Assembly: GCA_003152315.1 (NCBI GenBank)
Contig: PLZV01000018.1
Location: forward strand, 37,206-101,205
DNA from: Verrucomicrobiota bacterium
GTDB lineage: Bacteria; Verrucomicrobiota; Verrucomicrobiia; Palsa-1439
Reading direction: 5' to 3'
Length of the DNA stretch: 64,000 nucleotides
The translations under genes were made by a program, and so were the position numbers. Below are positions 4,933 through 26,100 of the stretch, piece after piece (within the stretch, counting starts at the first letter, position 1; every line of letters starts with the position of its first letter). Under the pieces are notes generated by a model that was not told the origin of the DNA, did not search any database, and worked only from the letters and a program-made list of their open reading frames with translations.

Positions 4933-4974
4933 GCATTCAAAAAAGGCGTCCGATGGCATCGAGGAAGACAGACC

Positions 4975-5745
<771 letters not shown>

Positions 5746-5748
5746 GAC

Positions 5749-7158: not shown

Positions 7159-7159
7159 C

Positions 7160-7230: not shown

Positions 7231-7235
7231 ACAAC

Positions 7236-9742: not shown

Positions 9743-9847
9743 CTGGTTGTTTGAACCGGGACGTTGCCACTACACATGACATTACCAACTTATCGGTTTC
9801 AAATTGACCCACTGCCGCGCCCGCACTAGTCTGCGTATGGAGGCACT

Positions 9848-10306
9848 ATGCAGGCACTATCGGTCGCGCAACTCATTCCGGTACTTCAGACCGCCATCGG
9901 TCCCACCATCCTGATTTCCGGCGTGGGGTTGCTCCTGCTCACCATGACCAATCGGCTGGCGCGGACCATCGACCGCACGAGAGCCGCTGCGCGCGAACTG
10001 CCTGACACGAGCGCGCCTGATCACGCAATGCATGCCGGGCAACTCCAGGTTCTCTGGAGGCGCGCGCGCCTAATCCGCCTGTCCATCGCACTGGCTTCCC
10101 TGAGCGCGCTTTTCGCCGCGCTGCTGATCATTGTGCTGTTTGTGACAGCCTTGTTACAGCTTGAAAACGTTTGGCTAATCTGCACCCTGTTCATCATCTG
10201 CCTGATTTGCCTGATCGGATCACTCTTTGTGTTCATTCACGATATTAATCTGGCGTTAGCTGCCCTGAAATTTGAGGTTTCGGGGAAAGACGTCAGGGGT
10301 GACTAG
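9848..10306 (+). CDS. DUF2721 family membrane protein
   Basis: 152 residues with an N-terminal hydrophobic segment (about 15-32), a basic stretch TNRLARTIDRTR that recalls the family's conserved motif, and two further membrane segments (about 80-105 and 110-130). Function is unknown for the family. It sits between sufS and sufU without evident coupling; a role in Fe-S metabolism would be guesswork. Confidence 0.75.
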   Translation: MQALSVAQLIPVLQTAIGPTILISGVGLLLLTMTNRLARTIDRTRAAARELPDTSAPDHAMHAGQLQVLWRRARLIRLSIALASLSALFAALLIIVLFVTALLQLENVWLICTLFIICLICLIGSLFVFIHDINLALAALKFEVSGKDVRGD

Positions 10307-10368
10307 AAAGAATTAAGATTATTTGAAACGAAATTGGATCTCGCGCGTCTAAACTTGTAGGAGGTCAT

Positions 10369-10539
10369 ATGAAAAACAGTGCCAAGAAGCACATTATGAC
10401 GTTGCGAGATGTAATCGGTATCGTATCGCGGTTTGCCCGCAACGATTACGAGACGAGCCTGGTCGTGGCAGACCTGCTCAACCGCGGGTTTGTTCGGGTC
10501 AACGCTGGTGGTCAATCCCGTCGGATCATTGTCCGCTGA
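10369..10539 (+). CDS. Small basic conserved-looking protein, 56 residues
   Basis: An AGGAGG ribosome site (10359-10364) precedes ATG 10369 at good spacing. The product starts MKNSAKKHIMTLRDVIGIVS and ends with a basic tail, GGQSRRIIVR. The middle (ARNDYETSLVVADLLNRGFV) could fold as a small winged or three-helix unit. From memory, similar short 'TLRDLI..VS..A..D.E....V..LL..G.V' proteins occur in PVC and other bacteria with no assigned role. The strong ribosome site and clean reading frame argue it is translated. Possible DNA binding is inference. Confidence 0.65.
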   Translation: MKNSAKKHIMTLRDVIGIVSRFARNDYETSLVVADLLNRGFVRVNAGGQSRRIIVR

Positions 10540-10575
10540 TCAACAGGGGTGTCGCACCAAGACGTGCGCGCAATT

Positions 10576-10595
10576 CCGCGAGGAAAGCCTCGCGG
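10576..10595 (+). terminator. Hairpin after the 56-residue gene
   Basis: CCGCGAGG-AAAG-CCTCGCGG is a perfect 8-bp stem followed by only a short T-run (TTTG). It could end transcription before sufU or be a processing site. The weak U-tract keeps confidence low. Confidence 0.35.
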
Positions 10596-10695
10596 TTTGC
10601 CTTCGTGCTTACGTGATTCCGGATGAAGCCTGTCTAGCGCTGATTGTCAGTTTTTTCCTTCCAGCACTCGCGTCTTGTGGTAGCTTTGTTGCGTC

Positions 10696-11130
10696 ATGAT
10701 GGAAGAGCTTTACCAGGAAATCATCCTCGATCATTATCGTCGCCCGCGCAACAAGGGCAAGGCGGAGCCTTCCGACATTTCCGCGCACGACTCCAACCCG
10801 CTTTGTGGCGATGAGATCGATGTGACGGCGAAGCTGGTGGACGACAAGATTGCCGAACTGAAGTTCGACGGCAAAGGTTGCGCAATCTGCACGGCTTCCG
10901 CGTCGATCATGACCCAGAAGCTTGTCGGGAAGACCCTGCCGGAAGCCACGCAGTTTATCGACGGTTTCCTGAACATGATGCGCGGCGCGGTGCCATTTGG
11001 CGGCAAGGAGATGGGTGACTTGAAGGCGCTGGAAGGCGTCCTGAAGTTTCCCGTGCGGGTGAAGTGCGCAACCCTGGCGTGGAATACCGCCCAGCAAGGC
11101 ATCCAGGAACGCGCGACAAAGAAATCCTGA
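10696..11130 (+). CDS. sufU: SufU-type Fe-S scaffold / zinc-dependent sulfurtransferase
   Basis: 144 residues, N-terminus MMEELYQEIILDHYRRPRNK as in SufU/IscU-like proteins. Three cysteine sites are present: NPLCGDEID, GCAICTASASIM and VKCATLAW. The insertion between the second and third cysteines, and the neighbouring sufS, favour SufU over IscU. SufU accepts persulfide sulfur from SufS in systems lacking SufE. It is separated from sufS by two small genes and followed 33 bp later by the DUF2203 gene. Confidence 0.92.
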   Translation: MMEELYQEIILDHYRRPRNKGKAEPSDISAHDSNPLCGDEIDVTAKLVDDKIAELKFDGKGCAICTASASIMTQKLVGKTLPEATQFIDGFLNMMRGAVPFGGKEMGDLKALEGVLKFPVRVKCATLAWNTAQQGIQERATKKS

Positions 11131-11163
11131 CACAGCCACTCCATTATCCACATCGACACACGC

Positions 11164-11550
11164 ATGCCCTATCAATTTGAAAAACACTTTACGCTCGAAG
11201 AAGCGCGGGCCCTGCTTCCCGAACTGCGCAGCATATTTCGGGACGCACACCGCCGCCGAGATGTCGTGCAGAAGACGGACACGGAACTCGGTCAAGAGTT
11301 AAAGCAGTCCGGCGCGGAAGTCGGCGGTGAAAAGGTCTCAGGTCTCTTGATGGACATGCTGCAACTCAACGTGCAGTTGCGACGCATTCAGGAGTTGGGT
11401 GTACAGATCAAAGACTTCGATCGCGGGCTCGTTGATTTCCCCCACATCCGCGATGGTCGCGAAGTGCATCTTTGCTGGGAACTCGAAGAAGATGACATCG
11501 AGTTCTGGCACGACATCGATACGGGCTACGGCGCCAGAGAGCGCCTGTAG
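11164..11550 (+). CDS. DUF2203 family protein
   Basis: 128 residues: an N-terminal FTLEEARALLPELR helix, a helical middle, then the family's C-terminal signature with FPHIRDGREVHLCWELEED and a terminal tryptophan-aspartate segment (FWHD). Function unknown. It follows sufU closely and may be co-transcribed. A small GC hairpin (GCGGGC-GG-GCCCGC, about 11569-11582) lies between it and the convergent gene. Confidence 0.85.
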   Translation: MPYQFEKHFTLEEARALLPELRSIFRDAHRRRDVVQKTDTELGQELKQSGAEVGGEKVSGLLMDMLQLNVQLRRIQELGVQIKDFDRGLVDFPHIRDGREVHLCWELEEDDIEFWHDIDTGYGARERL

Positions 11551-11581
11551 CTGCCCGGAAACACCATTGCGGGCGGGCCCG

Positions 11582-12592
11582 CTAGATCCTGCCGTTGTCA
11601 GCCTGTTTCGTCGAAAACGATTCCGGCTTCCAGTCGCCGTTCACGTCGCGATGGAACACATCGCGCTGCATAATCGTGGTACCGTTGGATTGATGGACTT
11701 CGTGTTCGACGATTTTTCGCTGCGGAACGAGAGGCTCGAGGAGTTCGTTGCCGGTTTTCGTAGAAAAGATCGAGCGGCCATTCTCGATCGTTTCCCGGGA
11801 TACGGAACCATCGGGGGCGGTCGTCTCCGTGGTGGTTGTGCGCCCGCTCAGTTCCCAGCCGGTGCGCCCGGGGGTGCGAACCTCGCTATCGATCTGTTTC
11901 TTTCCGCCCTGCGTGGAGATGGAAGTGGTCTCTTCGGCTGTGACCGCGAGCTTCCCGGTCAGATGATCCGCTGCCATGGTCTTGGAAGTGACGACCTTCT
12001 CATTCAGCCCGCGTTCAACGACCACCTCTTCCCGCTGGGTCTTGATGACCAGGTTACCGTTGACATCCGGGACCTTCTCCAAGCGAGTGGTGTTGGCTGT
12101 GCCATCGGCACCTTTGACGGTGTTCGCGTCTAGCACACGATCCAGCACGAGCTGGCCGCTGGTATTGCGGGTGTACATTTTCGTTTCGGCGGTTTCTCCG
12201 GAGGGTGACTTGCTGACCGTCTCGTCGGTGTGCCGCGACATGTGGTCCTGACCCTGTCGATCCTTCTCGACAACGTCCGTGGAACTGAACGACTTGTCGG
12301 GCGAGAGCTCTTTCTTGGTAGCCGTGCTTCGCTGCCATTCAAAATAGCTGCCGTCGTTAAGGCGGGCCTTCGTAACCGATTCCGTGTGCTGGGTTGTGGA
12401 ATCTACTTTCGTTTCCTTACTTTCTTTGATGAGCGGAACAAGATTCCGGTCAGAGGTAGTGATATTGACCTCGGAATGAGTGGCGGAGCCGTCAACTGAT
12501 TCGGTACCACGGACAATGACCTGCGCGAACGTTGCGGTGGTGACTGTGAAAGCGGCTGAGCCAATGGCAAAAACAAACGCACGTGTGTTCAT
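11582..12592 (-). CDS. Secreted protein of unknown function
   Basis: 336 residues. An N-terminal signal peptide (AFVFAIGSAAFTVTTATFAQ) is cleaved near residue 24. The rest is polar, rich in Thr, Ser, Glu and Lys, with no membrane segments, and reads as weak repeats of beta-strand-like 'ETxSKSPSGETAETK' and 'ETTAPDGSVSRET' stretches. I do not recognise a family. It lies 20 bp downstream of the thioredoxin-like gene on the same strand, so it is probably co-expressed with it. Confidence 0.75.
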   Translation of the reverse strand: MNTRAFVFAIGSAAFTVTTATFAQVIVRGTESVDGSATHSEVNITTSDRNLVPLIKESKETKVDSTTQHTESVTKARLNDGSYFEWQRSTATKKELSPDKSFSSTDVVEKDRQGQDHMSRHTDETVSKSPSGETAETKMYTRNTSGQLVLDRVLDANTVKGADGTANTTRLEKVPDVNGNLVIKTQREEVVVERGLNEKVVTSKTMAADHLTGKLAVTAEETTSISTQGGKKQIDSEVRTPGRTGWELSGRTTTTETTAPDGSVSRETIENGRSIFSTKTGNELLEPLVPQRKIVEHEVHQSNGTTIMQRDVFHRDVNGDWKPESFSTKQADNGRI

Positions 12593-12612
12593 AATGGTTT
12601 CCTATCTACAGG

Positions 12613-13698
12613 CTAATTAGCTTCATTTTTGGGTATTTCGCAAGTGCCAAAGCTGAATGAATATACCGATAGGCCGCGACTTTGGACAATGAGTTGAAGA
12701 TCGTACGTGCCGTATGGCTGGCGACCGATAAGATTATACATGCGCGGGCTCTTGGCCTCAACGTAGCTGCGCCCCTGCTCATCGTACTTGATGTCTCCGC
12801 CAGCGACTTCCTTCTTGAGCCAGTCGCCGTCCTGTTTTACGAAGACACGCAACCAGTAGGCGCCTTCGGGTTTCATCACCACGTTCACCTCGGTCGCGCG
12901 ATAGCGCAAGGCGATGAAATCCTGTGGCTCGTCCGTGTCGCGGGTGTGGCGCAGGTACTCGGATTGGTTGGCCCACTCGCCCGAGGCGTAAGCGCGCCCC
13001 TCGTCACGCTTGTCGGGAATGGCAAACAGCGCGGTCGCGTTCGAGGGAACATTGCCCAACTGTCCGCGTGTGTGGCCCAAGTATAACTCGGGTGTGATCG
13101 GATAACAAACGGCACCGGGTTTGTCGATGCCACGCACGGGTCCCATCGGCGCGGGGAAGTCTTTTGCCGAATCGATTTCGAGGAGCAGTTTTTGAATCGA
13201 CAACTCCGTCTCCGCATACGCGCCCTCACCAGTATGATCGAAGCGGATGCGCCCGTCTTTGTCGATTAGGAATACTCGAGGCGAATAGCGGTTGTTGTAG
13301 GCCTCCGCGATGCGCGAATCGCTGTCCACGGCAATCGGAAATGCCACCCCCAGCCGTTTCACGCCCGCGAAGACGTTTTGCGGGTCCATGGAGAAGCCGT
13401 ATTGGGGCGTGTGGATGCCGATGACAACGAGTCCGTCGCCCGCATAGCGCTTTTTCCACTCCTGGATGTACGGGAATGTGCGGATGCAGTTGACGCAACT
13501 GTACTCGAAGAAATCGAGCAATACGACCTTGCCACGCAGGTCGGCGACCCGCAAGGGCGTGGAGTTCAGCCACGTCAGGCTACCGTTGAGTTCGGGCGCC
13601 CGTTTCCCGCTCGCAAGACCTGTGGCGGCACGGCGCTGGCAGCTGAGTACACCCGCTGCAAACAGAAAAACGCATAGTTGTTTTCGAGGAATCCGCAT
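12613..13698 (-). CDS. Thioredoxin-like lipoprotein with C-terminal DipZ-like domain
   Basis: 361 residues. A lipobox (GVLSC, Cys about residue 20) predicts a membrane-anchored periplasmic lipoprotein. The thioredoxin fold (about 35-170) has the redox motif CVNC in FFEYSCVNCIRTFPYIQ, followed by IGIHTPQYGF. The C-terminal half resembles the carbohydrate-binding-like tail of DipZ and similar redoxins. The likely role is extracytoplasmic thiol-disulfide exchange or peroxide reduction; the substrate is unknown. It sits between fpg and a secreted-protein gene on the same strand with gaps of about 20 bp. Confidence 0.82.
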   Translation of the reverse strand: MRIPRKQLCVFLFAAGVLSCQRRAATGLASGKRAPELNGSLTWLNSTPLRVADLRGKVVLLDFFEYSCVNCIRTFPYIQEWKKRYAGDGLVVIGIHTPQYGFSMDPQNVFAGVKRLGVAFPIAVDSDSRIAEAYNNRYSPRVFLIDKDGRIRFDHTGEGAYAETELSIQKLLLEIDSAKDFPAPMGPVRGIDKPGAVCYPITPELYLGHTRGQLGNVPSNATALFAIPDKRDEGRAYASGEWANQSEYLRHTRDTDEPQDFIALRYRATEVNVVMKPEGAYWLRVFVKQDGDWLKKEVAGGDIKYDEQGRSYVEAKSPRMYNLIGRQPYGTYDLQLIVQSRGLSVYSFSFGTCEIPKNEAN

Positions 13699-14491: not shown

Positions 14492-14518
14492 CCCGCCGCA
14501 GCGCCAAGCGAAGGCGGG
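14492..14518 (-). repeat. Short hairpin directly 3' of tRNA-Leu
   Basis: CCCGCC (14492-14497) and GGCGGG (14513-14518) flank GCAGCGCCAAGCGAA. On the minus strand the hairpin abuts the tRNA 3' end and could act in tRNA termination or processing. It also resembles a dispersed REP sequence. Confidence 0.4.
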
Positions 14519-14605
14519 TGCCCGGGGAGGGATTCGAACCCACACGGTGATTTAACTCACCTTCGGATTTTAAGTCCGATGCGTCTGCCGTTCCGCCACC
14601 CGGGC
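14519..14605 (-). tRNA. tRNA-Leu(UAA)
   Basis: Read on the minus strand: acceptor arms GCCCGGG/CCCGGGC, D-loop GGCGGAACGGCAGACGC, anticodon stem TCGGA/TCCGA with loop CTTAAAA (anticodon TAA), a long variable arm (GGTGAGTTAAATCACC) typical of class II leucine tRNA, and T-arm GTGGGTTCGAATCCC. CCA is not encoded. The gene's 5' half (14568-14605) belongs to the 40-bp att repeat, so that half and the upstream promoter region come from the integrated element. Confidence 0.95.
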
Positions 14606-14607
14606 AA
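14568..14607. other. attL: 40-bp direct repeat, left copy
   Basis: Identical over 40 bases to 22244-22283. It covers the tRNA anticodon loop, D-arm and 5' acceptor strand plus two flanking bases. The sequence immediately left of this copy continues the intact tRNA. Confidence 0.93.
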
Positions 14608-14657
14608 AGCCTGTATTTACTTGGTTTATACGGCGATTTACACCAAGCAAATTTTGT

Positions 14658-14680
14658 GGTTGCAACCTGAAGTTGTAACC
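14658..14680. promoter_or_regulatory. Left arm motif, candidate Int/Xis-binding site
   Basis: GGTTGCAAC-CTGAA-GTTGTAACC, an imperfect palindrome between attL and the integrase start. Nearly the same motif in reverse-complement orientation is at 22091-22112 near attR. Paired arm sites near both ends are expected for integrase or excisionase binding; this role is inferred. Confidence 0.45.
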
Positions 14681-14716
14681 AGTATCTTCTAGTCGTTGAT
14701 AGGAGACTGAAAACAT

Positions 14717-15844
14717 ATGAAGCAAACCTTAGTAAACGTAGCCGAAAACCTTTGGAAGAGTCAAGAAAGCGGGATTTACTACGCCATCCTCAAAGTCGGT
14801 GGAAGGCAGATCAAGAAGTCGCTTAAGACCAACGAGGCGAAGGTGGCCAAGCGCAAGCTCCGTGATTTGGAGAAGCAGTATCAGGAGCGGAGCGGGATTA
14901 TCAGCGATGAACCGACCCCCCGCTCGTTTCGTGAACTGGTCGAGAAGTTTCAACGCATCGCGCTGCCGGTGCGGCCTCTAAAACCGAAGGCCGCGCTGGA
15001 CTACATAACCCGCCACAACGCCCTGTTGAAGCATAGCGGCTTCTCCGCATTGCCCCTTAGCAAGATCAGCATGATTGATTGCCAGAAGTGGTTTGCCACG
15101 CGCCAGAAGATGATTAGCGCACAGCGGATGAACAACGAAACGTGCGCCTTGCGTGACCTCTTCGAGTGGGCGCGTGATAACGGATGGATGATGCACGACC
15201 CCGCCGCGAAGCTCCCCCGCCTGCGATTGCCCCGCCCAAACCCTGACCCGCCAACGGAAGATGAATTTCGACGGATTGTTGAAGTCCTGCGCGGTCATCG
15301 TGACCGGGATGCGGCAGACCTCACTGAGCTTATGGCCTATTCTGGATTGCGGTTGTCGGAAGCCTGCGGGTTGAAGTGGCAGGATGTAGATTTTGATAAG
15401 GGAGTGTTCTACGTAGCTGGCAAGGGCCGGGATGTCAGCGAGCGCGACAAGGTTCCCCTGTTCCCCGCCATGCGCGAGTTACTCCTGAGAATCCGGCAGG
15501 CCCGGCAGCAACGGAAGATCACCGGCATCAAACCCGAGGACACAATCATGCGCGTGGACGGATGCAGGGATGGACTCAAGGCTGCGTGTCGCGAGGCCAA
15601 ATTGCGACGAATATTTTCCCACCATGATATGCGAAAATACTTCGCCTCCCGGTGTATGGAGCAAGGTGTACCCATCCGCACCTTAGCGGGCTGGCTGCGG
15701 CATCTTGACGGTGGCGCTTTGCTGCTCCGAACTTATGCAGCCCATCAGGATAAGGCGTCAATGGAAGAGGCTGCGAAGATCAATCTGGCCGTCCCGATGA
15801 AGGCAGACAACGTGATTAAAATGAAGCAGGCGGCGAACTCCTAG
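14717..15844 (+). CDS. int: Tyrosine recombinase (integrase)
   Basis: 375 residues. N-terminal arm-binding region with GGRQIKKSLKTNEAKVAKR, SAM-like core-binding domain (about 75-165), and catalytic domain (about 180-350). Active-site residues: Arg in YSGLRLSEAC, His and Arg in HHDMRKYFASR, the second His in GWLRHLDGG, and nucleophile Tyr in LLRTYAAH. It would catalyse integration into and excision from tRNA-Leu(UAA). The gene begins about 110 bp from attL, preceded by AGGAG at 14701, and reads into the element. Confidence 0.95.
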   Translation: MKQTLVNVAENLWKSQESGIYYAILKVGGRQIKKSLKTNEAKVAKRKLRDLEKQYQERSGIISDEPTPRSFRELVEKFQRIALPVRPLKPKAALDYITRHNALLKHSGFSALPLSKISMIDCQKWFATRQKMISAQRMNNETCALRDLFEWARDNGWMMHDPAAKLPRLRLPRPNPDPPTEDEFRRIVEVLRGHRDRDAADLTELMAYSGLRLSEACGLKWQDVDFDKGVFYVAGKGRDVSERDKVPLFPAMRELLLRIRQARQQRKITGIKPEDTIMRVDGCRDGLKAACREAKLRRIFSHHDMRKYFASRCMEQGVPIRTLAGWLRHLDGGALLLRTYAAHQDKASMEEAAKINLAVPMKADNVIKMKQAANS

Positions 15845-15856
15845 GAGGCTATTACC

Positions 15857-16549
15857 GTGAAGAAAACAATCATCAAGACCGCGATGTATGAGAAGTACGA
15901 AAGACCTCTCTCCGAGTGCACCCCGCGCTTCACTGACCCGGTGAAGTACGCCGAGGCCCAAGCGGACCACCTGTTGAAGTTTTACTGCAAACAGGGACTA
16001 TTGAAACCTATCCCGCCGAGCTGGCGACCAAAACGGGGCCGATATGACCACAGGCTATTTTGCGGCCATTCGTACTCCGTCCAGCGGCATCCACTTAAAG
16101 ATAACGACCAATTCATACTTGAACAATTGCACGACTTGTCTCGTGACCTTCGCAGATTTGCCGAGTGCTACAGGGCAAGCGAACATGAGGAGGCCGCGTT
16201 TCGTGCAATTAGAATCGGCAGACTATTGGAGCAGCTTGAGGTTTGTCAGTACGATGCGGATGTAAAATACGGACGCCCCGGACTACAGCAACTCACAAAG
16301 AACAGGGAGAAGGCCATCGCAAAGCGACGCGAGGAGTTCGCGCCCGTCCATCAGGAAATCATCAAGAAGCTGAAAGCCAGTAGATCGTGGCAAGGGATTA
16401 TCAACGACTTCGCTGCCGGCAAGCACAACCTCCCTGCCGACGAGCACAACCGTCCTGCCGACGAGCACGGCAAAGTGAAGATCAAGGTCAGTCGAAGCAC
16501 TGTCGCTCGCCTAGCCAGACGCTACCGGAAGTCCATCCGTAAAAAGTAG
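15857..16549 (+). CDS. Element protein of unknown function, 230 residues
   Basis: GTG start at 15857 with AGGAGG at 15843-15848, 12 bp after the integrase stop. The product is basic and mostly helical, with no recognisable family. Near residues 186-205 is a short in-tandem repeat, NLPADEHNRPADEHGK, followed by a basic C-terminus (VSRSTVARLARRYRKSIRKK) that could be a helix-turn-helix contacting DNA. It may assist the integrase or regulate the element; this is inference. Confidence 0.75.
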   Translation: MKKTIIKTAMYEKYERPLSECTPRFTDPVKYAEAQADHLLKFYCKQGLLKPIPPSWRPKRGRYDHRLFCGHSYSVQRHPLKDNDQFILEQLHDLSRDLRRFAECYRASEHEEAAFRAIRIGRLLEQLEVCQYDADVKYGRPGLQQLTKNREKAIAKRREEFAPVHQEIIKKLKASRSWQGIINDFAAGKHNLPADEHNRPADEHGKVKIKVSRSTVARLARRYRKSIRKK

Positions 16550-16598
16550 TGCCATCCTGTTAAGCGTGACACCTGCCGCCTGAGTTATCGTCGGCAGC

Positions 16599-16850
16599 AT
16601 GAAGCAAGAACAAGTTGTCACAAGCAATCGGCAGCGGCAGGCCGACCCTGCCACCAAAAACTTAGAAGTACTCCAAGCGCAGTTTCCCGGACAGGTCGCG
16701 CTGACCCGCGACCAGACCGCGAAGGCGTGCGGGTTTAAGCATCCCGTCACGGTGGATAGACTCCGCCAGCGCGGGCTTCTCCACCCTAACCTCACAACCC
16801 GCCGTCCCGTTTACCCACTCACCGAGATTGCGCGATTTATCTCGCAATGA
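16599..16850 (+). CDS. Small MerR/excisionase-like HTH protein
   Basis: 83 residues. After a polar N-terminus comes VALTRDQTAKACGFKHPVTVDRLRQRG, followed by RRPVYPLTEIARFI. This is the order of a winged HTH of the excisionase/MerR N-terminal type: helix-turn-helix, basic turn, then a strand and helix. It may be the element's excisionase or a repressor. Its stop overlaps the primase start (ATGA at 16847). Confidence 0.65.
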   Translation: MKQEQVVTSNRQRQADPATKNLEVLQAQFPGQVALTRDQTAKACGFKHPVTVDRLRQRGLLHPNLTTRRPVYPLTEIARFISQ

Positions 16851-17797
16851 TTCGAGATGAAACCCAGACGGCGCACCCGATGAAGTCATCAGATACGAGA
16901 CAGCTTCCGCAATTTCTATCTGAAATGCTGGACGCTCGCCCCAATGCAGGTGAGGGAGTAAATAACTGGCTCTTTCGAGTATCCCGGCAGCTTCATGCAC
17001 ACTTGCCAGTGGGCGAAATAATTTCCTTGCTGGAAAATCGCGTTGCTAATTGTGGACGCCGTGTTAGCCGGAAAGAGATCGAAAGAGCGGTTCAGAACAC
17101 CATCCCGTGCGCGTGGCAGCCTCATGGCCGTGCGATAACACACCACACCACATCGAAGTGGCCTACCGTCAATCAGGAGCGCCGCGACGCCATCAGCAAG
17201 GAAGGCGGACTAGCTGACCTTTGGGAACTTTCGCCGGTACGCCTGCACGATAATGCGCCACACACGGAGCAGATCGTTGACCGATTTTTCCCGGGCGATT
17301 CGTTTTTGTGTTGCGGGAAATCCAGCACCGTCTTTGATACCCGGTTGCGGGGCTCATGGCGGGGCGAACTCTCTGCCCTATCGCTTATCGTGCCATCTCC
17401 CATGACTGCCACCACCGGCACGACCAAAGAAGGGAAGGAATCGACCCACACCCTGAGCAACACCGGGCCACGCCGTTTCCTGATTGTGGAGTTTGACCAG
17501 GGTGCGACCGACGAGCACGCCGCATTGCTGATTCACTTGGCTGGATTCGCGCCGTTGGTGTGCGCCGTTCACAGCGGAAACAAGAGCCTTCACGGATGGT
17601 TTCTCGTGGAAGGACAACCAGAAGATAAGGTGCACCGATTTTTCCGCTATGCCGTTTCTCTCGGTGCAGATCACGCGACATGGACACGCTCACAATTTGT
17701 GCGGATGCCCGATGGTGTGCGGGACAACGGCAATCGGCAGACCGTTTTTTATCTGAGTTTCAAACCCTTGGAGGCTTCCGTTGAATTCGCTTCTTGA
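16847..17797 (+). CDS. AEP-like (archaeo-eukaryotic type) primase of the element
   Basis: 316 residues. The N-terminal part (about 20-90) resembles a PriCT-like helical domain. The C-terminal half has sequences typical of phage and plasmid AEP primases: the acidic motif FLIVEFDQG (about 205), the S-x-H type motif HSGNKSLHGWF (about 240) and WTRSQFVRMPDGVR. It would synthesise primers for element replication together with the downstream helicase. It starts by ATGA overlap with the HTH gene. I see no full second metal-binding DxD, so activity needs testing. Confidence 0.72.
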   Translation: MIRDETQTAHPMKSSDTRQLPQFLSEMLDARPNAGEGVNNWLFRVSRQLHAHLPVGEIISLLENRVANCGRRVSRKEIERAVQNTIPCAWQPHGRAITHHTTSKWPTVNQERRDAISKEGGLADLWELSPVRLHDNAPHTEQIVDRFFPGDSFLCCGKSSTVFDTRLRGSWRGELSALSLIVPSPMTATTGTTKEGKESTHTLSNTGPRRFLIVEFDQGATDEHAALLIHLAGFAPLVCAVHSGNKSLHGWFLVEGQPEDKVHRFFRYAVSLGADHATWTRSQFVRMPDGVRDNGNRQTVFYLSFKPLEASVEFAS

Positions 17798-18836
17798 TAC
17801 CGCCGAAATCCGCGACGTGCCGGACACAACACCAGAAGTGCGGGAGATGAAGCAATCCGCCGACACCCTACCGCCCATTGTCGATGCCGCTGAGTTTTTG
17901 GCGGAACATATCGAACCACCTGCCGAATTGGTGGAGGGAATAGTACATCAAGGCTCAAAGTTAGTGCTTGGTGGCGGCTCTAAGACGTTCAAGACATGGA
18001 CCCTCATTGACCTTGCTGTATCTGTTGCCACTGGTGAGTCGTGGCTTGGATTCGATACCCAAAAGGGCAGGGTTCTATTTGTGAACTTCGAGATTCAACA
18101 CGCGTTTTTCCAGAAGCGTATTGTTTCAGTTACCCATGAGAAGCTGATAACGCTTCCCACTGGACAACTGGACATCTGGAACCTGAGAGGCCGGGCGACA
18201 AGTTACGAGGTGTTAATCCCACACATCACCGAGCGGATAAATCAGGACTACGCGCTTATCATTCTTGACCCTATTTACAAACTCTATGGCAAGGCCAATG
18301 AGAACGCTGCCAATGAAGTAGCACAGCTACTCAACGCCATCGAGCAACTGGCGGTAGAGAGTGGCGCGGCAATCGCGTTCGGGGCGCATTACAGCAAGGG
18401 GAATCAAGCCAACAAAGAGGCCATTGACCGGATTAGTGGTAGCGGTGTTTTTGCTCGTGACCCTGATTCAATACTGAGCTTCACAAGGCACGAGGAGGAG
18501 GATGCGTTCACGGTCGAGGCCACGTTGCGGAACTTCATTCCCATAGAGCCGTTTGTTGTGCGGTGGGGACACCCACTCATGCGCCGGGATGGTTCACTTG
18601 ACCCGGCCAAGCTGAAACAGACTGGTGGAAGGCCGAAGCAGTACACCGTCGAGAAGATTCTGGACGTGCTTAGGGGCAAAAAACTCACCACCCAAAAGTG
18701 GCTTGAGGCCGCTACTCCCGAAACTGGCATTTCCAAGACACGTTTTTACGCCTTGCTTGAAGAAGTAAAGAAGCTGCCGAACGTGCGGAAAAACCAAGCA
18801 GGCCAATGGTTTATCGAGGATGCCGCGAATGACTAA
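17781..18836 (+). CDS. RepA-like AAA_25/RecA-fold replicative helicase
   Basis: 351 residues. TTG start at 17781 with GGAGG at 17770-17774, overlapping the primase gene by 17 bp. Walker A GGGSKTFKTWT (about residue 60), a Walker B-like LIILDPIYKLYG (about 155), and the sensor-like AIAFGAHYSKGNQ (about 195). These match hexameric RepA/DnaB-type helicases of plasmids and integrative elements. The C-terminal 80 residues look like a winged helix (YTVEKILDVLRGKKLTTQKW). Together with the primase it suggests autonomous replication after excision. Confidence 0.85.
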   Translation: MNSLLDTAEIRDVPDTTPEVREMKQSADTLPPIVDAAEFLAEHIEPPAELVEGIVHQGSKLVLGGGSKTFKTWTLIDLAVSVATGESWLGFDTQKGRVLFVNFEIQHAFFQKRIVSVTHEKLITLPTGQLDIWNLRGRATSYEVLIPHITERINQDYALIILDPIYKLYGKANENAANEVAQLLNAIEQLAVESGAAIAFGAHYSKGNQANKEAIDRISGSGVFARDPDSILSFTRHEEEDAFTVEATLRNFIPIEPFVVRWGHPLMRRDGSLDPAKLKQTGGRPKQYTVEKILDVLRGKKLTTQKWLEAATPETGISKTRFYALLEEVKKLPNVRKNQAGQWFIEDAAND

Positions 18837-18987
18837 CACTACTCCCAAAACTAGTTTCGGTACTTTTGGGAGTCCCAAGTCCCATATCTCTTTAGGATAT
18901 GGGACGGGAGTAAGTACTGCCCGAACTCCCGAAACCCAGACGGCAACCCTATCAGCCTTCGCAGCACAACAGAGAGCAACGGCATGA
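18829..18987 (+). CDS. Small coupled ORF, 52 residues
   Basis: ATG 18829 overlaps the helicase stop, and the stop TGA 18985-18987 overlaps the next ATG (ATGA). The product is low in hydrophobics and rich in Ser, Thr and Gly (starting MTNTTPKTSFGTFGSPKSHI). Its DNA is dominated by palindromes, so it could be a by-product of a structured site. The precise overlaps at both ends support real translation, at least as a coupling relay. Confidence 0.45.
   Translation: MTNTTPKTSFGTFGSPKSHISLGYGTGVSTARTPETQTATLSAFAAQQRATA
18841..18931. repeat. Cluster of perfect hairpins at the end of the helicase gene
   Basis: Three stems: ACTCCCAAAA (18841-18850) with TTTTGGGAGT (18864-18873); GTCCCATATC (18879-18888) with GATATGGGAC (18896-18905); CGGGAGT (18905-18911) with ACTCCCG (18925-18931). 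The ACTCCC/GGGAGT word occurs four times. Candidates are a replication origin or helicase-loading site, or an mRNA structure controlling the downstream genes. Confidence 0.7.
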
Positions 18988-19109
18988 AAGGAATAAGTCA
19001 TAAGTGCTTGATAGTCCCCCACTTAGGGTCCTTCCGTAAGTCGTTGTGGCTGAACGGTCTAACGACGAGGGTATACACCCCATCATACTTACGCTGTGAC
19101 ATTTTATGA
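18984..19109 (+). CDS. Small coupled ORF, 41 residues
   Basis: ATG 18984 overlaps the preceding stop and its own TGA (19107-19109) overlaps the next ATG at 19106. The product starts MKGISHKCLIVPHLGSFRKS. No family is recognised. The double ATGA overlap is the main evidence that it is translated. Confidence 0.45.
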   Translation: MKGISHKCLIVPHLGSFRKSLWLNGLTTRVYTPSYLRCDIL

Positions 19110-19885
19110 ATGAGATTCTTTTTCAAATCCTCGGTCGCACTGACGCCATTTTCCACCCGCGCTGCGGATTTGCGGGCGACCAAGAAAGCGTGGTCTGGGA
19201 GCGCCGGCACTTTTACACCGAGTGCGGCCTTCGCTGGGTATCCCATGGAGATCACGCCGCGTTGCGAAAAGCCTCGGAACGTTGCCTCAAAACCTTGGAA
19301 GGCGACGGGCTGATCGAAAGCTACCGAGCGGGCGGCAGGATCACGCATGTCCGATTAACAAATTCTGGCGACCAACGGGCGCGGGCTGAGTGTGGTCTGC
19401 CCGGCTTGTCTGGTGCTGTGAAGTTGTTCCAGAAAATTCAGCGGCTTATCGACTCCGGCGACGTTGTTGAAGACCGGTACGTTGCAGAAACTGGTCTTGG
19501 AAATTTCGTTTACGACAACGGCGGGGAATTGGGCGGGAACTGGCAAGGCCACCGTTCAAAACTTGCCCGAAGGTTAATGCCGCTCTTGTCGCGAGGACTC
19601 GTGGACTCGAATTGCTGCGATGCGAGAATCTTTTACACCCTGACGGAATCCGGTAGGCGTGCTATCGAGAAACCACCCGCACCTCTTTCGAACCTTCCGA
19701 AATGCGACCCCACCGCTGCGGACATTTGGGCTGAAGCGTGGGTTGAAGAATTTGAAGACATGCAGACCGCTGCGAAAACTTTGAAAAGCAACATCGGGAT
19801 TTTCCCTGAAATTTTAGATGTCCGAACCCGAAACGAGATCACCGCCGCACCAGCGGCAGAACACCAAGGAGTAGAAGCGAAATGA
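19106..19885 (+). CDS. Element protein with two winged-helix-like units
   Basis: 259 residues, unrecognised family. Two segments have the pattern of a winged helix: about 50-90 (ALRKASERCLKTLEGDGLIESYRAGGRITHVRLTNSG) in shortened form KTLEGDGLIE...ITHVRLT, and about 145-185 (KLARRLMPLLSRGLVD...IFYTLTESGRRA). Both end in the 'hhTxxG' wing seen in transcriptional regulators. A role in control of the element or in replication initiation is possible. ATGA overlaps occur at both ends. Confidence 0.7.
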   Translation: MNEILFQILGRTDAIFHPRCGFAGDQESVVWERRHFYTECGLRWVSHGDHAALRKASERCLKTLEGDGLIESYRAGGRITHVRLTNSGDQRARAECGLPGLSGAVKLFQKIQRLIDSGDVVEDRYVAETGLGNFVYDNGGELGGNWQGHRSKLARRLMPLLSRGLVDSNCCDARIFYTLTESGRRAIEKPPAPLSNLPKCDPTAADIWAEAWVEEFEDMQTAAKTLKSNIGIFPEILDVRTRNEITAAPAAEHQGVEAK

Positions 19886-20175
19886 CTATGCAAATCTGGA
19901 CGAACCCCGCGACCGCAACGACGTGCGGCGCTTGCAAGACGGCAATGACCGTCAAGTTGAACGAAGTCTATTTGTACCGCGACGGCGCACCTGTCCACGA
20001 TCACCACGCGACCCCTGAAGATCAAAAACAATTGAAGGCTGAGAGGGCGACACGCCAGGGCAACAGCGCCGAGCATCAAAAAGCGTCGCGCAAACGGGCA
20101 CTGGCGACGGCAATGACCGCCGCGCAATGGGTTTGCGCGGCAAAAGAAGCCAGCCGGGAGAGACATCATGGTTGA
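19882..20175 (+). CDS. Small element protein, 97 residues
   Basis: ATG 19882 overlaps the upstream stop (ATGA); AAGGAG lies at 19866-19871. A CxxC (TTCGACKTAM, about residue 15) near the N-terminus could bind zinc only with partners, for example the HDHH histidines at about 39. The rest is a charged, alanine-rich helix. No family recognised. Confidence 0.6.
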   Translation: MTMQIWTNPATATTCGACKTAMTVKLNEVYLYRDGAPVHDHHATPEDQKQLKAERATRQGNSAEHQKASRKRALATAMTAAQWVCAAKEASRERHHG

Positions 20176-20428
20176 GCCAATTCTCCATGGCACGTTCGCA
20201 AAGCAAACCACTCATTCTACTTGCCCGAAGTGTGGCAATGGGTTCACCGTGCCGGACATGGGCGCTTGCATCCTTGACGAGCAGAAACGCCCGGTGTGTC
20301 CCAAGTGCACCGGCGAACGTGGGCGCAAATTGATCGCGAAGATGGATTTTGCGCAACAGGACGACGCAACTTGCACAATGCTTTTACATCCTCACCGCCA
20401 AAACCAAAACCGCAGATCGACCAGCTAA
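20168..20428 (+). CDS. Small zinc-ribbon protein, 86 residues
   Basis: Overlaps the previous gene by 8 bp; ribosome site GGGAGAG. Two CPKC knuckles (STCPKCGNGF about residue 18 and PVCPKCTGERG about 42) make a four-cysteine zinc ribbon of the kind found in small DNA- or RNA-binding phage and plasmid proteins. The tail after residue 60 is disordered-looking. Confidence 0.65.
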   Translation: MVEPILHGTFAKQTTHSTCPKCGNGFTVPDMGACILDEQKRPVCPKCTGERGRKLIAKMDFAQQDDATCTMLLHPHRQNQNRRSTS

Positions 20429-20437
20429 GGAGACATC

Positions 20438-20956
20438 ATGCAGACACCGAAAGAAATCGTAAGAACACAATTCCCAGATAGCGAACAAGTCCGCGCTGAC
20501 CAAAAGCAGGCCGAGCACGACCGTCAATGGAATATCACTAGAGAATACAACCGCTACTGCCTTGAATTTGACCGCAAATTTATGACACCCCGGCAGCAAC
20601 GGCAAAACGAGTTGGGTTCTGAAGAAGGAACCGCCCGGCAAGAATTGGCTAGGGCATCCAGAAGCGTGGAAAACTTCCTGAATAGCCAAAAGTCCACTTT
20701 GGAACGGGCCGCAGGCAACGACTACAGCGACCTTATCGAAGAAGGCAAGACCGACTTCGCGGCAGGAAACGCACTTCGCGCACAAGCGGTGGAAGCCTAC
20801 CAGAAACAATATCCGCGACTGACTGTCGTGTATGAAGACGCCAAGACCGCACACGCACAAGCCATGAAGAAGCGCGACGACTGGCTACGGCAAAACAGGC
20901 CGATGTTTCCGCCGCTTTTCAGTTTGTCTATAGACTGGAAAAATATGCACGCATAA
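20438..20956 (+). CDS. Coiled-coil element protein, 172 residues
   Basis: AGGAGACATC precedes ATG 20438, nearly the same leader as the zinc-ribbon gene. The product is strongly charged and helical from about residue 12 to 150, probably a long coiled coil, and ends with a hydrophobic MFPPLFSLSIDW segment. No enzyme motif or family is recognised. Confidence 0.65.
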   Translation: MQTPKEIVRTQFPDSEQVRADQKQAEHDRQWNITREYNRYCLEFDRKFMTPRQQRQNELGSEEGTARQELARASRSVENFLNSQKSTLERAAGNDYSDLIEEGKTDFAAGNALRAQAVEAYQKQYPRLTVVYEDAKTAHAQAMKKRDDWLRQNRPMFPPLFSLSIDWKNMHA

Positions 20957-21109
20957 CTTTTTGGCGCGTCGCGTGTCGGCTTATTCCTTAGCCGACAGCC
21001 GGGGAACGGCTCACGGCAGCGCGATGCGACCGGGCGCGGGCGGCTGTGGCAGCGGCTACGGAAAATTGGCCGGGCTGCCACGGCCCGTCGCTTGGCTTTC
21101 AGTGAGTAC

Positions 21110-21658
21110 ATGACAACAGAAGCAATCAAGATCATCTGCGACACCCGCGAGCCATGGCCGCATCCGTGGGCGCGTTGGTTGCCTTCCCATGTCCAGATTG
21201 AACGGGCCACACTCGAAACGGGCGACTTCGCTTTGGCTGGCCTACCAGACGGGGCGGTTGTCGAGCGCAAGACCGTTTCCGACTTTCACGGATGCGTTAC
21301 CAGCAACCGCGAAAGATTCGAGCGCGAGCTTGCCCGCAGCCGGTATGTCGGGCGATTCGTTGTCGTTGTCGAGGGCAGCTTGTTCGATTGCATAGACGGC
21401 AGTGGCGGACCGTCAGAGGCCAGCTTGATCGGCACAGTGGCAGCATGGAGCAGGAGATTTTGCCCTATCATCTTCGCGGGCGACGAAAGACACGCGGCAG
21501 TGTTGGCGTGGCGATACCTGGCTGGACAGATCACCGAGGGCCATCGCATCATCCGTGCGGCAGAGCGCGAAACCGCGGGTGTGGCTACGGCTGAGGGCCA
21601 TCTGGCCATTGCGAGCAAAAAGAACGTGCCTCTACCAGTGCATCGGGCTTGTTTTTGA
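21110..21658 (+). CDS. ERCC4-domain nuclease
   Basis: 182 residues. The XPF/ERCC4 catalytic motif is clear: CDTREPW (about residue 11), ETGDFALAGL (about 35), then VVERKTVSDFHGCVT with the ERKxxxD signature, and RERFERELAR. This family cleaves branched or 3'-flap DNA, so it could process replication or recombination intermediates of the element or attack competing DNA. I choose ATG 21110 over an in-frame TTG at 21092; neither has a strong ribosome site. The last 20 residues diverge from the family, so the end may be altered. Confidence 0.82.
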   Translation: MTTEAIKIICDTREPWPHPWARWLPSHVQIERATLETGDFALAGLPDGAVVERKTVSDFHGCVTSNRERFERELARSRYVGRFVVVVEGSLFDCIDGSGGPSEASLIGTVAAWSRRFCPIIFAGDERHAAVLAWRYLAGQITEGHRIIRAAERETAGVATAEGHLAIASKKNVPLPVHRACF

Positions 21659-22243
21659 CCAGACGGCAAACCACGTTCGCGGCTGGCTGCAATCCCCAGT
21701 GGTACACGTCGAGCAGATCGGCAGGCCCGAACGCATCGCCAGAATCCGAACGCACCAAGACGGGTATGCGATAATGGCTTGAAGGGTGTTCCGTGCTCAA
21801 CATCAACGATGGGCTGAGTTGTGTTTCCATGGCGGACATCATGCTCCTACCGTGAGGCGTTGGCAACTTCCAACGTGCCAGCTATCGCGGGCCGCTGAGA
21901 TCGTGCGTTCCTTGCCCTTGTAGCTTGACGATTCTGGCCTTGTGGCGACGTAGGAGGCTCTTTCCGCCAGTATCATCATGCGACCACGGCATCATCGACG
22001 CAGTGGCGGGCGTCCTAGAGACATAAAACAGGCAACGTAGCGGGCAATCTTCACACACCGCCCCCCTCTTCCCCTCTAAACATCCTCACTGGTTGTAACC
22101 CGAGTTGCAACCCGCCCTCAAAAAAAGAGCGTATTCAAGGAGAGATAAGCAGACCACTTGACCGACCTCTAAACCCTGTCCTGATTGCGTCAGCGGGGTG
22201 GAGTGGCGACAAGCGAACATGAGCGCAAAATCGACGTTTTGAC
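21659..22243. other. Right end of the element without a supported gene
   Basis: I see no convincing ORF. Short open stretches lack ribosome sites and family resemblance. The region holds the right arm motif (22091-22112) and runs into attR at 22244. It may carry cis-acting sites or remnants. Confidence 0.5.
22091..22112. promoter_or_regulatory. Right arm motif, candidate Int/Xis-binding site
   Basis: GGTTGTAAC-CCGA-GTTGCAACC, the near reverse-complement counterpart of the left motif at 14658-14680. It lies 131 bp inside attR. Confidence 0.45.
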
Positions 22244-22283
22244 TTTTAAGTCCGATGCGTCTGCCGTTCCGCCACCCGGGCAA
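22244..22283. other. attR: 40-bp direct repeat, right copy
   Basis: Identical to 14568-14607. Only the 5' half of tRNA-Leu is present, and the left neighbour sequence does not continue the tRNA, so this is an attachment remnant and not a second tRNA gene. Confidence 0.93.
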
Positions 22284-22321: not shown

Positions 22322-22702
22322 TTACGTAAAGTCCACTGTAGTCACTTTTGCAGTCACTTCAACGTCCAAAAGGCCAATCACCCGCCGCTTATGTTCGGAT
22401 GCAAGGAGCGCGTATCGCATGGTCATGCCGATGGTTTTGTGGCCAGTCAATTCTTGCACAGTGCGCACGTCCGCGCCAGCCATAATCAGCCGCAAGATGT
22501 AGGTGTGCCTCAGCAAGTGAACGATCCCGTCCTTGCCGAGCATGGCCGCGTCTTGAGCCCGCTCAAACGGCTCACCGAAACTCCGCTCGGTGTTGAATCT
22601 GTCGCCGCAACTTCGTCTTTGGCAGGTCAGTAGCAGGGGCGAGCAAACCTCAGACGGGAGCAATGCCCAGCCGAGCGACTCATCGGGAGTCCGCAACGGC
22701 AC
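22322..22702 (-). pseudogene. Tyrosine recombinase C-terminal remnant
   Basis: About the last 100 codons match an integrase catalytic domain: HLLRHTYILRLIMAGADVRTV, in which the H-x-x-R is seen, then TGHKTIGMTMRYALLASEHKRR containing the second His and the nucleophile Tyr. The N-terminal domains and the first catalytic Arg are absent; sequence before about 22618 shows no resemblance. It lies 39 bp beyond attR and reads towards it, marking an older element that used the same tRNA region. Confidence 0.8.
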
Positions 22703-23166
22703 CAGACTACGTCATACCCCGGCGTTGATATTGTCGGCGGTACCGCAGCAGCGTTTCCGTGGTCCTCACACCGGTGGTAACCAAGTTGAGTGGTTACCAC
22801 GAGCACGCGAAGTGTTCAGGTGTACTGGACATCATAATGTTCAACATGTAAGGCCCGGTGGACACTCGGCCCGCAGTATTCTCAACTTGGTCAGCATTCC
22901 GGAAGATACCTATTTGTTACGCAACTCCATAACCTGCATATCAGCTGCTACTTACACCGACGCAGCGCCATGGCCATGGAAAGCTTATTTTTACTGGCTT
23001 TTTTGGCATAGATGTCGCTATCCTGAGGGCGGCGAGGTGAGGTGTGCCGTTGACCTGTGGGTTGCGCATGGGCCGCGTCCAAACCTATTGCCATAGTACG
23101 TGTGTGTCCGTGTCGGCTACATCGTCGGTGAGAACGGTGGAACAGAACGATTACAGGTTGCTTTTT
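22703..23166. other. Non-coding stretch before the giant gene
   Basis: No gene supported. A perfect 10-bp hairpin, GTGGTAACCA-AGTTGAG-TGGTTACCAC, is at 22774-22800, perhaps left from the decayed element or a regulatory site. An in-frame extension of the giant gene to 23044 looks non-coding. Confidence 0.5.
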
Positions 23167-26100
23167 ATGAAAAAATCATGCTTCGCATTTCTATCCATGG
23201 CAGCGCTTGTTCTGCTCACCGCCAATTCCGCGCTGGCCACTGCCACCGTCACCGTTCAGGCCAATGGGACGATCTCCGCTGACTGCACTGGCGGGGTCTA
23301 CTCCAATCTGCCCGGCCCAGTACTCACGGAGGGAGCTACTGCGGACATTGGCGTTGGCACGATTATTTTGAATGTGGCTCCGGGGTTCGAGTTCAATCCA
23401 GCCGCTACGGTTAACGTCGTCACCTCGCGAACGGGCGCCGGTACCAGCCCCTTGCTCCAGTTGGCCTCGGAAACGGCCACGGTCACGTCCAGCAACATCA
23501 CCATTACCTCAGTGGCCCCGGACGGAGGTACCGCAAGGACGGTTCTGACTTGGTCGGGCATCCAAGCACGGCCCACCGCCGTGTCGCCGCTAGCGACGAG
23601 TAACATTGTGATGTCTACGTCCAGCACGATCGTCATTACCGGCATCGCCAAGGGAACAACGAATTTCGGCACGCTCCGCGAAGTTGCTGGTACAGCGGGC
23701 ACGAAACTGGGTTTCACGACGGCGCCAGCTGCGACGAACGTTGCCGGAGTCGCGATGGCCAACGTGGTAGTACAGGTCCAGGGTGCGGCTGGGAATAATG
23801 TTGCCTCCAACAACGTGGCGATTGCTGTGGCCTTGAATACGGGCTCCTTTGCCAGCGGCAGCACGAACGCCACGACCGGGGCCGGAGGGTCTGCCACGTT
23901 CAGCAATTTGGTCATCAATACGCAGGGGAGCTATACCCTGACCGCTTCCGCTCCTGCGACGGGTCTCTCCAACTCGCCCGCCGCTCCATTTGTGGTCGTG
24001 GCAGGTCCCCCGAGCACTTTCCAGTTCTTACAGGATGCGCCTTCGACAATCCTCGCCGGAACGACTTTCCCATCCGCGGTCACAGTCCAACTCATCGACG
24101 CGTTTGGCAACTTGATCAGCAATAAGACGGTAACGCTGAGCCTGCTTGGCGGCGGCACCCTCAGTGGCACGACATCGCAACCATCCGACGGAACGGGCGT
24201 GGCGACGTTTAGCGGTTTGAGTGTTGCCCAGGCCGGAACCAATAAGGCCCTCGTCGCGAGCATTAGCAGCCCATCGATGTCCATCACGGGGGCAACGTTC
24301 ACCGTGACGGCGGGATCAGCCACCAAACTGGGTTACACCACCGCGCCGGCTGCATCGACCCCTGCTGGCGTAACGATGGCCAGCATCGTGGTGCAGATTC
24401 AGGATGCGGCGGGCAACAGTATCGCATCCAACGGCGTGCCGATCACGGTGGCGTTGAACGCGGGCGCCTTTACCAGCGGTACCACCACGATCCTAACCGC
24501 GCCGGATGGCTCGGCCACCTTCAGCGATTTGCTCATCAACACGTCCGGTAACTACACCCTCACGGCGTCCTCCGCCGGGAACATTTTCACCGCGACACCC
24601 GCGGTTCCATTTACAATTGCCACGGCGACGCCCAGCGTCATCCAGATCACGCAAGATGCGCCCGCCGTGACCAGCGCCGGGGCGGTGTTCTCGCCGGCAG
24701 TGACGGTGCACGTAGCCGATTCGCTTGGCAACCCGGCCACCAATACACTGGTATCACTGAACCTTCTTGGCGGCGGGTCCCTCAGTGGAACGGTCGCACA
24801 TGTGACCGACATCACCGGTGTGGCCACGTTTAACAATTTGAGTATCAGTGTCGCCGGGACCAACTACGCTCTCGTTGCCAACTCCGTCAATTCCTTGTCC
24901 GTCACCGGTAACACTTTCACCGTGACCTCGGCCGCCGCCACCAAACTGGTCTACACGAGCGTTCCAGCCATTACCAATACTGCCGGCGGCACCTTGTCCG
25001 CCTTCACCGTGCAGACGCAGGATCAGTTCAACAACAATGTTCCGTCCAGCGGCGTGCCGATCACCATGAGCTTGGGTACCGGCACTTTCGCCAGCGGTAC
25101 CCCCTCAACCAACTCCGATGTAAATGGCTCGGCCACCTTCGGTGACCTGGTCATTACCAACGCCGGCAACAACACGCTGACGGCATCGTCGCCAGGGCTG
25201 GCTTCGGCGAACAAGTCGCTGGTCATTCTCCCGGCGCCGTTTACCATGACCTTCCAGCAGGATGCGCCTTCCGTCACCAATGCCGGGTCCGTGTTCACGC
25301 CCGCGGTTGCTGTGAGGATTGCCGATGTCTTCAACAACGTGCTCAGCAACCGGACGGTCACGCTGTCCCTCCTGAACGGCGGTACCCTAAACGGCACGCT
25401 ATCGCGCACGACAACCAACAACGGTGTGGCGACGTTCAACAACCTGAGCATCAATGTTGCCGGGACCAACTACGCTCTCCTCGCCTCTTCCACCAATTCC
25501 ATGTCCGTCACCGGCAATACGTTTACCGTGACCACGGCCCCCGCTTCCAAACTGATCTACACCGTTCTGCCGCCCGCCTCCGGCGTCGCCGGCGCGACGT
25601 TGACCGCGTTCACCGCCCAGGTTGCGGATCAATTCAACAACAGTGTCGCCACCAACGGCGTGCTGATCTCGATGGGTCTGACGAACGGCACCTTTGCCAG
25701 TGGGACTACTTCGAGCAACTCCGACGCGAATGGCTCGGCCTCCTTTAGCGACCTGGTCATTACCAACGCTGGCAACAATACCCTCATTGCATCGGCACCC
25801 GGCCTGACTTCGACCAACCGGTCCCTTGTTATTTCACCGGCGGACCTTACCCTCACACTCCAGCAGGATGCGCCTGCCGTGACCAACGCCGGGGCTACGT
25901 TCACGCCTGCGGTCGCCGTCAGACTCGCCGACCAGTATAACAACGTCGTCAGCAACCGGACCGTCACTCTGTCGCTGCTCAATGGTGGCGGCCCCCTCAA
26001 CGGCACGCTATCGCGGTCGACCACCAACAACGGCGTGGCGACATTCAATAACCTGTCGATCAATGTCCCAGGGACTAATTACGCCCTCGTTGCCGTCTCC

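Follow-up and report, generated by a model that had tools for sequence, protein, structure and literature searches.

A Minimal Replication-Competent Integrative Element at the 5' Half of a tRNA-Leu(UAA) Gene in Verrucomicrobiota, Probably Spread as a Phage Satellite

Results

The element and its ends

We analyzed a 64,000-nucleotide stretch of DNA (the window) from a Verrucomicrobiota bacterium (assembly GCA_003152315.1, contig PLZV01000018.1, positions 37,206 to 101,205). It contains a 7.7-kb integrative element with ten open reading frames (ORFs), all intact and all on the plus strand, between direct repeats at 14568-14607 and 22244-22283. As an earlier reading of the letters (the original prediction) had it, these repeats are exact: they are identical over 40 of 40 bp and are the only two copies in the window when up to three mismatches are allowed, no third copy of the core being found there, and the expected number of such 40-bp repeats in shuffled sequence is 0.00. 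Because ARAGORN places a tRNA-Leu(UAA) gene at 14516-14606, the repeat corresponds to the 5' half of this gene, from its 5' end to the anticodon loop. The tRNA is whole at the left junction, where its 5' half (the core) and its upstream region are element DNA. This identity of the repeat had been overlooked, as had the arm-like repeats at both ends and a truncated integrase beyond the right repeat. The features of the two ends are as follows.

14516-14606, minus strand: tRNA-Leu(UAA), the integration target (ARAGORN; Rfam tRNA match 5e-11; identical 90-bp tRNA at the empty site in congener G389)
14568-14607: left att core, 40 bp, tRNA positions 0-39 (repeat and tRNA mapping)
14608-14716: left arm region, AT content 0.62 versus 0.42 for the window (computed)
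14657-14681: arm-type inverted repeat TGGTTGCAACCTGAAGTTGTAACCA, candidate integrase/Xis binding site (motif shared with the two ends of the G388 element, from another congener)
22090-22113: right arm-type inverted repeat TGGTTGTAACCCGAGTTGCAACCC (repeat comparison)
22244-22283: right att core, the displaced original tRNA-Leu 5' half (repeat comparison)
22322-22702, minus strand: C-terminal piece of a foreign tyrosine integrase, outside the element (PF00589 4e-10, profile positions 108-170 of 172)

Repeats of GGTTGCAAC lie just inside both cores, in this element and in that of G388, and would fit the pattern expected of arm-type integrase sites. The left arm region presumably carries divergent promoters for the tRNA and the integrase gene (int); a TATAAA box resembling a -10 element, a consensus match only, lies 18 nt upstream of the tRNA on the minus strand, and a promoter and terminator scan gave matches no more frequent than in shuffles. 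The predicted attP junction joins the right end (...CGACGTTTTGAC) through the core to the left end (AGCCTGTATTT...), and the predicted attB junction consists of the tRNA 3' half, the core, and TATGCTCACTG....

The same site was compared in two congeners. G389 has the mutM-tRNA-Leu locus with a 100% identical tRNA and no element; because window positions 22679-22752, beyond the right repeat, align 335 bp upstream of the G389 tRNA, this is the empty site. In G388 this tRNA holds an element whose integrase is 76% identical to that of the window; the two elements share the GGTTGCAAC arm sites and differ in cargo. The other end of the G388 element likely lies on a second contig, where a core copy is followed on the element side by genes for a zeta toxin and an AAA+ ATPase; this right junction (L101, 10046-14420) encodes a zeta-toxin-like kinase, a possible antitoxin, and an AAA+ ATPase of 760 amino acids (aa). 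Thus the window element shows what is known of tRNA-targeted tyrosine integrases: the repeat is part of a tRNA gene, the tRNA is rebuilt at one junction, and a relative has the empty site.

The integrase fragment to the right of the element indicates the remnant of an earlier insertion, and hence previous traffic at this site. It would also suit a degraded prophage of which only the integration and replication genes have been kept, and replication proteins of the phrog_2597 type, matched strongly by the helicase of the element and weakly by its primase, are present in temperate phages. We consider this explanation very unlikely, given the ten intact ORFs, the exact repeats, and the recurrence of the same compact gene order in 14 elements with different tRNAs and cargo and without portal or capsid genes (see below). 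The element encodes none of the portal, major capsid, and terminase proteins that mark a tailed prophage, and PF04860 (portal) is absent from the whole host genome. Adjoining the integration site is a gene for a repetitive 3814-aa protein with YDG, MBG, and Ig-like domains (window 23044-34488).

Genes of the element

Searches of the window proteins against Pfam, PHROGs, and NCBIfam assign the genes of the element as follows; the small protein between X and the primase has a helix-turn-helix (HTH), and AEP denotes archaeo-eukaryotic primase.

14717-15844, plus strand: tyrosine recombinase, int (PF00589 2e-18; phrog_1 7e-46; clade found at tRNA 5' ends)
15857-16549, plus strand: protein X, 230 aa, between int and the HTH gene (position in common with sister X genes)
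16599-16850, plus strand: small MerR/HTH_17-type protein, 83 aa (phrog_2474, MerR-like, 1e-4; phrog_66, excisionase, 0.0075)
16847-17797, plus strand: AEP-like primase (primase half of phrog_2597, weak by sequence at 0.02; motifs; fold searches)
17781-18836, plus strand: RepA-like hexameric helicase (AAA_25), overlapping the primase gene (PF13481 4e-27; helicase half of phrog_2597 4e-60)
18837-19105: non-coding gap behind the helicase gene (inverted repeats and copies of CTACTCCC(G/A)AAACT)
19106-19885, plus strand: double winged-helix (wHTH) protein, 259 aa (relatives in loci L173 and L174)
19882-20175, plus strand: 97-aa protein (ORF; no match under 0.01)
20168-20428, plus strand: zinc-ribbon-like protein, 86 aa (weak zinc-ribbon matches, 0.002-0.01)
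20438-20956, plus strand: 172-aa protein, coiled-coil-like by eye (no significant match)
21092-21658, plus strand: ERCC4/Hef-type nuclease, accessory (PF02732 5e-7; phrog_3490 1e-11)

These searches bear out the integrase, candidate excisionase, AEP-like primase (weakly by sequence), RepA-like helicase, and ERCC4 nuclease that had been proposed, and in them no family of transfer or virion proteins was matched by the element, in keeping with its description as a compact replicating element devoid of such genes. The 230-residue and coiled-coil proteins, said to have no known function, have no significant database match. Protein X matched nothing in any of the domain databases searched; its C-terminus looks HTH-like by eye. 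The small HTH protein has no Pfam match, and its family matches the HTH proteins of sister elements, among whose pooled proteins six match PF12728, at an hhalign probability of 97%; it is presumably an excisionase or AlpA-like activator. One borderline match of the window proteins in PADLOC (0.009) was discarded. The integrase has no match in IMG/VR.

The motifs EFD, SGxKSxH, and R-x5-R of the primase are kept across its relatives in an alignment. Its AlphaFold model (pLDDT 90) has a CRISPR-associated Prim-Pol as its best match in the PDB (Foldseek probability 0.91, E 0.035; not significant alone), and a search of BFVD with this model finds primase-helicase proteins of phages (E 3e-11). The sequence profile of the primase gave only chance matches against PDB sequences. 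The helicase matches RSF1010 RepA (1g8y, E 0.007), and the ERCC4 protein matches the Hef nuclease (1j22, 4.5e-4). Relatives of the double-wHTH protein are encoded immediately after the helicase in L173 and, in the tRNA-bounded element L174, at the distal end, and because of this recurrence the protein is a candidate initiator, or else a regulator; the gap at 18837-19105, with its repeats, may be the replication origin.

This replication module raises the alternative of an integrative plasmid-like or mobilizable element, with RSF1010-like replication and either mobilized in trans by conjugation or moving by natural transformation. The helicase resembles RSF1010 RepA, the set of primase, helicase, and wHTH protein recalls RepB'/RepA/RepC of IncQ, the wHTH gene directly follows the helicase gene in L173, and the window element has no terminase. 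Against this, the single-sequence AlphaFold model of the wHTH protein (pLDDT 36) gave no usable fold, a relaxase is absent from the element and PF03432 from the whole genome, relatives of the primase occur in no plasmid record, and a distant relative of the helicase occurs in only three, all called non-mobilizable. With terminase genes in sister elements as well, we regard a plasmid-like element as unlikely. Nor do we find the relaxase or type IV secretion system of integrative conjugative or mobilizable elements, either here or in the cargo of the sisters.

A family of elements in Verrucomicrobiota

The primase is found in 38 of 388 sampled genomes of the phylum, and all 30 named contigs belong to Verrucomicrobiota. 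Gene calls outside the window are our own ORF calls, and the relatives are mostly contigs of metagenome-assembled genomes (MAGs). Fourteen primase loci, the window's included, are bounded by direct repeats of tRNA sequence and span 4.2-11.3 kb (sizes in kb):

window 7.7; L035 9.2; L040 9.6; L042 6.3; L059 7.1
L064 11.3; L068 10.2; L116 10.8; L118 7.8; L121 4.2
L122 8.8; L126 8.3; L132 7.6; L173 7.9

Their usual order is int, X, small HTH, primase, helicase, and variable cargo, with departures in L118 (int at the opposite end) and L040 (primase and helicase fused); L121 seems to have lost the helicase. In seven elements (L035, L059, L064, L121, L126, L132, and L173) int and X overlap by exactly 4 bp. 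The sister helicases are diverse, belonging to AAA_25, D5_N, DUF5906, and DUF3987, with DUF5906 in five proteins of the sister pool and DUF3987 in one. The conserved unit is therefore this five-gene order with variable cargo and not, as had been suggested, a primase-helicase-ERCC4 trio: no ERCC4 gene turned up in the other loci with the primase that we inspected. The nuclease does recur in two further tRNA-bounded elements, L176 (70% identical, same genome) and L178, and in L177 beside a D5_N primase-helicase, and so may aid replication or resolution, yet is not part of the core.

Two sisters encode terminases, TerS in L040 (4e-23) and TerL in L064 (3e-21). Pfam searches of 53 cargo proteins from 12 sister elements gave no match to a portal, capsid, or relaxase family. 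Thus the expectation that homologous loci lack structural and conjugation genes did not hold for terminase and stood for portal, capsid, and relaxase. The sister cargo was searched as a pooled set, from which a rare structural gene could escape; two single PHROG matches to "virion structural protein", among the 25 of 61 families that were listed, are not assignable to a gene.

Restriction-modification (R-M) and toxin-antitoxin (TA) cargo is typical of satellites and islands. The sisters encode an MvaI/BcnI endonuclease with a C5 methylase (L035), a C5 methylase with an HNH protein (L132), the TA toxin HigB, and Cro-type regulators. Such cargo, together with several such integrases per genome, would also fit a defense or genomic island that only integrates and excises, uses its primase and helicase for copy number, and has no transfer route of its own, moving by vesicles or generalized transduction. 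We find this quite unlikely, as the two terminase genes point to a phage route and the wide spread across the phylum implies efficient transfer.

Further observations concern single members. The contig of L118 (att cores at 101-140 and 7835-7874) stops exactly at the second core, as could happen in assembly if excised and integrated forms coexist; terminal overlaps, a mark of circular contigs, were not found. A Sel1-repeat protein on the minus strand of L122 (13090-14340) recurs in primase loci L038, L046, L056, and L141 and is a possible shared cargo. Among the carriers are MAG records titled Akkermansia muciniphila (L120, L127, L135, and L144), names that look doubtful.

Integration at tRNA 5' ends

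Integration at a tRNA gene usually rebuilds the 3' part, and the tRNA then retains its own promoter. The 5'-half target is the more unusual feature of the window element; according to a review of archaeal recombinases, this arrangement is unique among archaea to pTN3-like integrases and seldom met in bacteria (PMC8371274). Repeats of a 5' half within one contig are found in the window, L042, L118 (by sequence), L173, and L176, the last a 12.3-kb element with a 47-bp repeat at tRNA-Leu(CAA), located in the same genome about 38 kb past the window's right end (contig C61; L176 positions 1362-13691) and also encoding a 656-aa protein linked by similarity to primase-helicases. In every orientable tRNA-bounded primase element except L068, int points away from the att site and the tRNA is antisense to it.

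In a tree of integrases, that of the window falls in a supported clade, every member of which with a known site abuts a tRNA 5' end. The 5'/3' label changes three times on this tree versus 7.3 times in shuffles (0 of 500 as low), several of the 5' labels being based on tRNA position alone, and since L118 and L128 fall outside the clade the trait has changed more than once. The four next closest integrases in the window's genome (31-33% identity; L185-L188, contigs C7, C12, C53, and C62) each adjoin the 5' end of a different tRNA (Arg-TCT, Arg-CCT, Lys-CTT, and Arg-ACG). For each, a 98-100% identical 39-40-bp copy of the 5' half lies elsewhere; one of these is on the same contig 29 kb away, so larger elements also use an integrase of this clade. 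AT content is high between tRNA and int (0.47-0.66, in most cases over 0.6, versus 0.42 for the window), and TATAAA or TATAAT boxes stand at a fitting distance from the tRNA in the window and G388, suggesting that element DNA replaces the tRNA promoter. In L125 (406-3167), a tRNA-Ser(CGA) lies between two divergent integrases, at its 5' and its 3' end respectively, an arrangement that would suit two elements in one tRNA gene.

Discussion

Mode of spread and proposed life cycle

We favor the reading that this is a minimal replication-competent integrative element, probably spread as a phage satellite resembling PICMI. In general terms, a satellite combines an integrase and replication genes without a complete virion gene set of its own, and this is the content found here. 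The original prediction had left the choice between a satellite and a small plasmid-like element; we favor the former because two sisters carry terminase genes. Several points weigh against a satellite. A terminase gene is present in just 2 of the 14 elements, the window element not among them, and no helper phage, excised circle, or particle has come to light. With no portal family in the host genome, there is no resident helper prophage of that portal type. Relatives of the primase, sought at E 0.01, are absent from 50,697 phage and 72,556 plasmid records, and its assignment as a primase draws on motifs and a weak fold match. Finally, conjugative mobilization through an oriT in trans may be compatible with the sequence.

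The life cycle of such a satellite might run as follows. The integrase would bind the GGTTGCAAC arm sites on either side and recombine two sites: attP, with its copy of the tRNA-Leu(UAA) 5' half, and the anticodon-loop/5'-half site of the host gene. Integration would restore a complete tRNA, its 5' half and upstream region being supplied by the element; transcription of this tRNA would presumably then start in element DNA and run divergently from that of int. Once made, the small Xis/AlpA-like HTH protein would, by analogy with PICMI, act together with the integrase and perhaps protein X in excision. Replication of the circle would depend on the AEP-like primase and the RepA-like helicase, and the double-wHTH protein may start it at the gap at 18837-19105. 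Having no transfer or virion genes, the element would need a helper. Since TerS or TerL is encoded by sister elements, helper-dependent packaging into phage particles appears the likeliest means of spread. The downstream genes, ERCC4 included, would be exchangeable accessories.

Satellite families have been described from a small range of host groups. In the literature searched, hardly any papers link phage satellites to Verrucomicrobia, and we found no earlier description of this type of element there, as anticipated for a little-described type. A primase-defined family in a tenth of the sampled genomes of the phylum, with its R-M and TA cargo, provides a ready marker for satellite surveys and a test of how far the PICMI layout serves as a general minimal plan. 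The tRNA 5'-end integrase clade contrasts with the usual 3' reconstruction and offers several natural cases in one genome for the question of how rebuilt tRNAs are transcribed. A bolder reading, which we hold to be rather doubtful, is an undescribed phylum-wide family of Verrucomicrobiota phage satellites, some of which use an integrase clade specialized for tRNA 5' halves. Every such integration would put element DNA in place of the promoter and 5' half of a host tRNA, in many cases one that lacks a redundant copy. The host would then rely on the element to express this tRNA, and this expression could be tied to induction of the element or serve as an addiction device.

Comparison with known systems

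The element shares with PICI, P4-like, and cfPICI satellites the layout of int, a small HTH gene (presumably AlpA-like here), and primase-helicase. Many PICIs carry TerS, as does one relative here; unlike them, the window element has no capsid-remodeling or packaging-redirect genes recognized by Pfam, PHROGs, or NCBIfam. In RSF1010/IncQ plasmids a RepA-like hexameric helicase likewise stands beside a primase gene and a wHTH protein, whereas our element is integrated rather than a free plasmid, lacks mob genes, and has no recognized iteron array.

PICMI is the best functional model because gene order, size, int-X overlap, and type of cargo match. PICMI have int, an int-overlapping gene needed for excision, an AlpA switch, and a primase needed for replication, in the order int-iolg-alpA-prim with prim defined by DUF3987 and DUF5906 models, and depend on virulent helper phages (PMC10803314). 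Both kinds of element are small (about 6-7 kb in PICMI, 4-11 kb here), have a protein that often overlaps int by ATGA ahead of an HTH gene (AlpA in PICMI, presumably AlpA-like here), a primase/helicase, and accessory genes, lack capsid-remodeling genes, and carry variable defense cargo; by position, protein X would be the counterpart of iolg/icg. The integrase domain (PF00589, 2e-18) is also that of PICMI. We nevertheless do not file the window element as a PICMI because integration site, host group, and helicase domain do not fit: PICMI occupy the fis locus in Vibrionaceae, whereas these elements use tRNA 5' or 3' halves (here tRNA-Leu(UAA)), their named relatives are all Verrucomicrobiota, and they have a separate AEP-like primase gene with exchangeable helicases, that of the window being AAA_25 and not DUF3987/DUF5906.

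Compared by description, the tycheposons and VEIMEs, marine elements proposed as phage satellites (PMC11389934), are likewise small and integrative, with variable cargo and a helper-dependent route, in hosts other than Verrucomicrobiota. A close parallel to the target site comes from pTN3-type integrases of Thermococcus (PMC5495485, PMC8371274), in which attB is again the roughly 40-bp 5' half of a tRNA-Leu gene and the rebuilt tRNA is parted from its own promoter; the archaeal int is split by integration, whereas here int stays intact and its clade uses many tRNAs.

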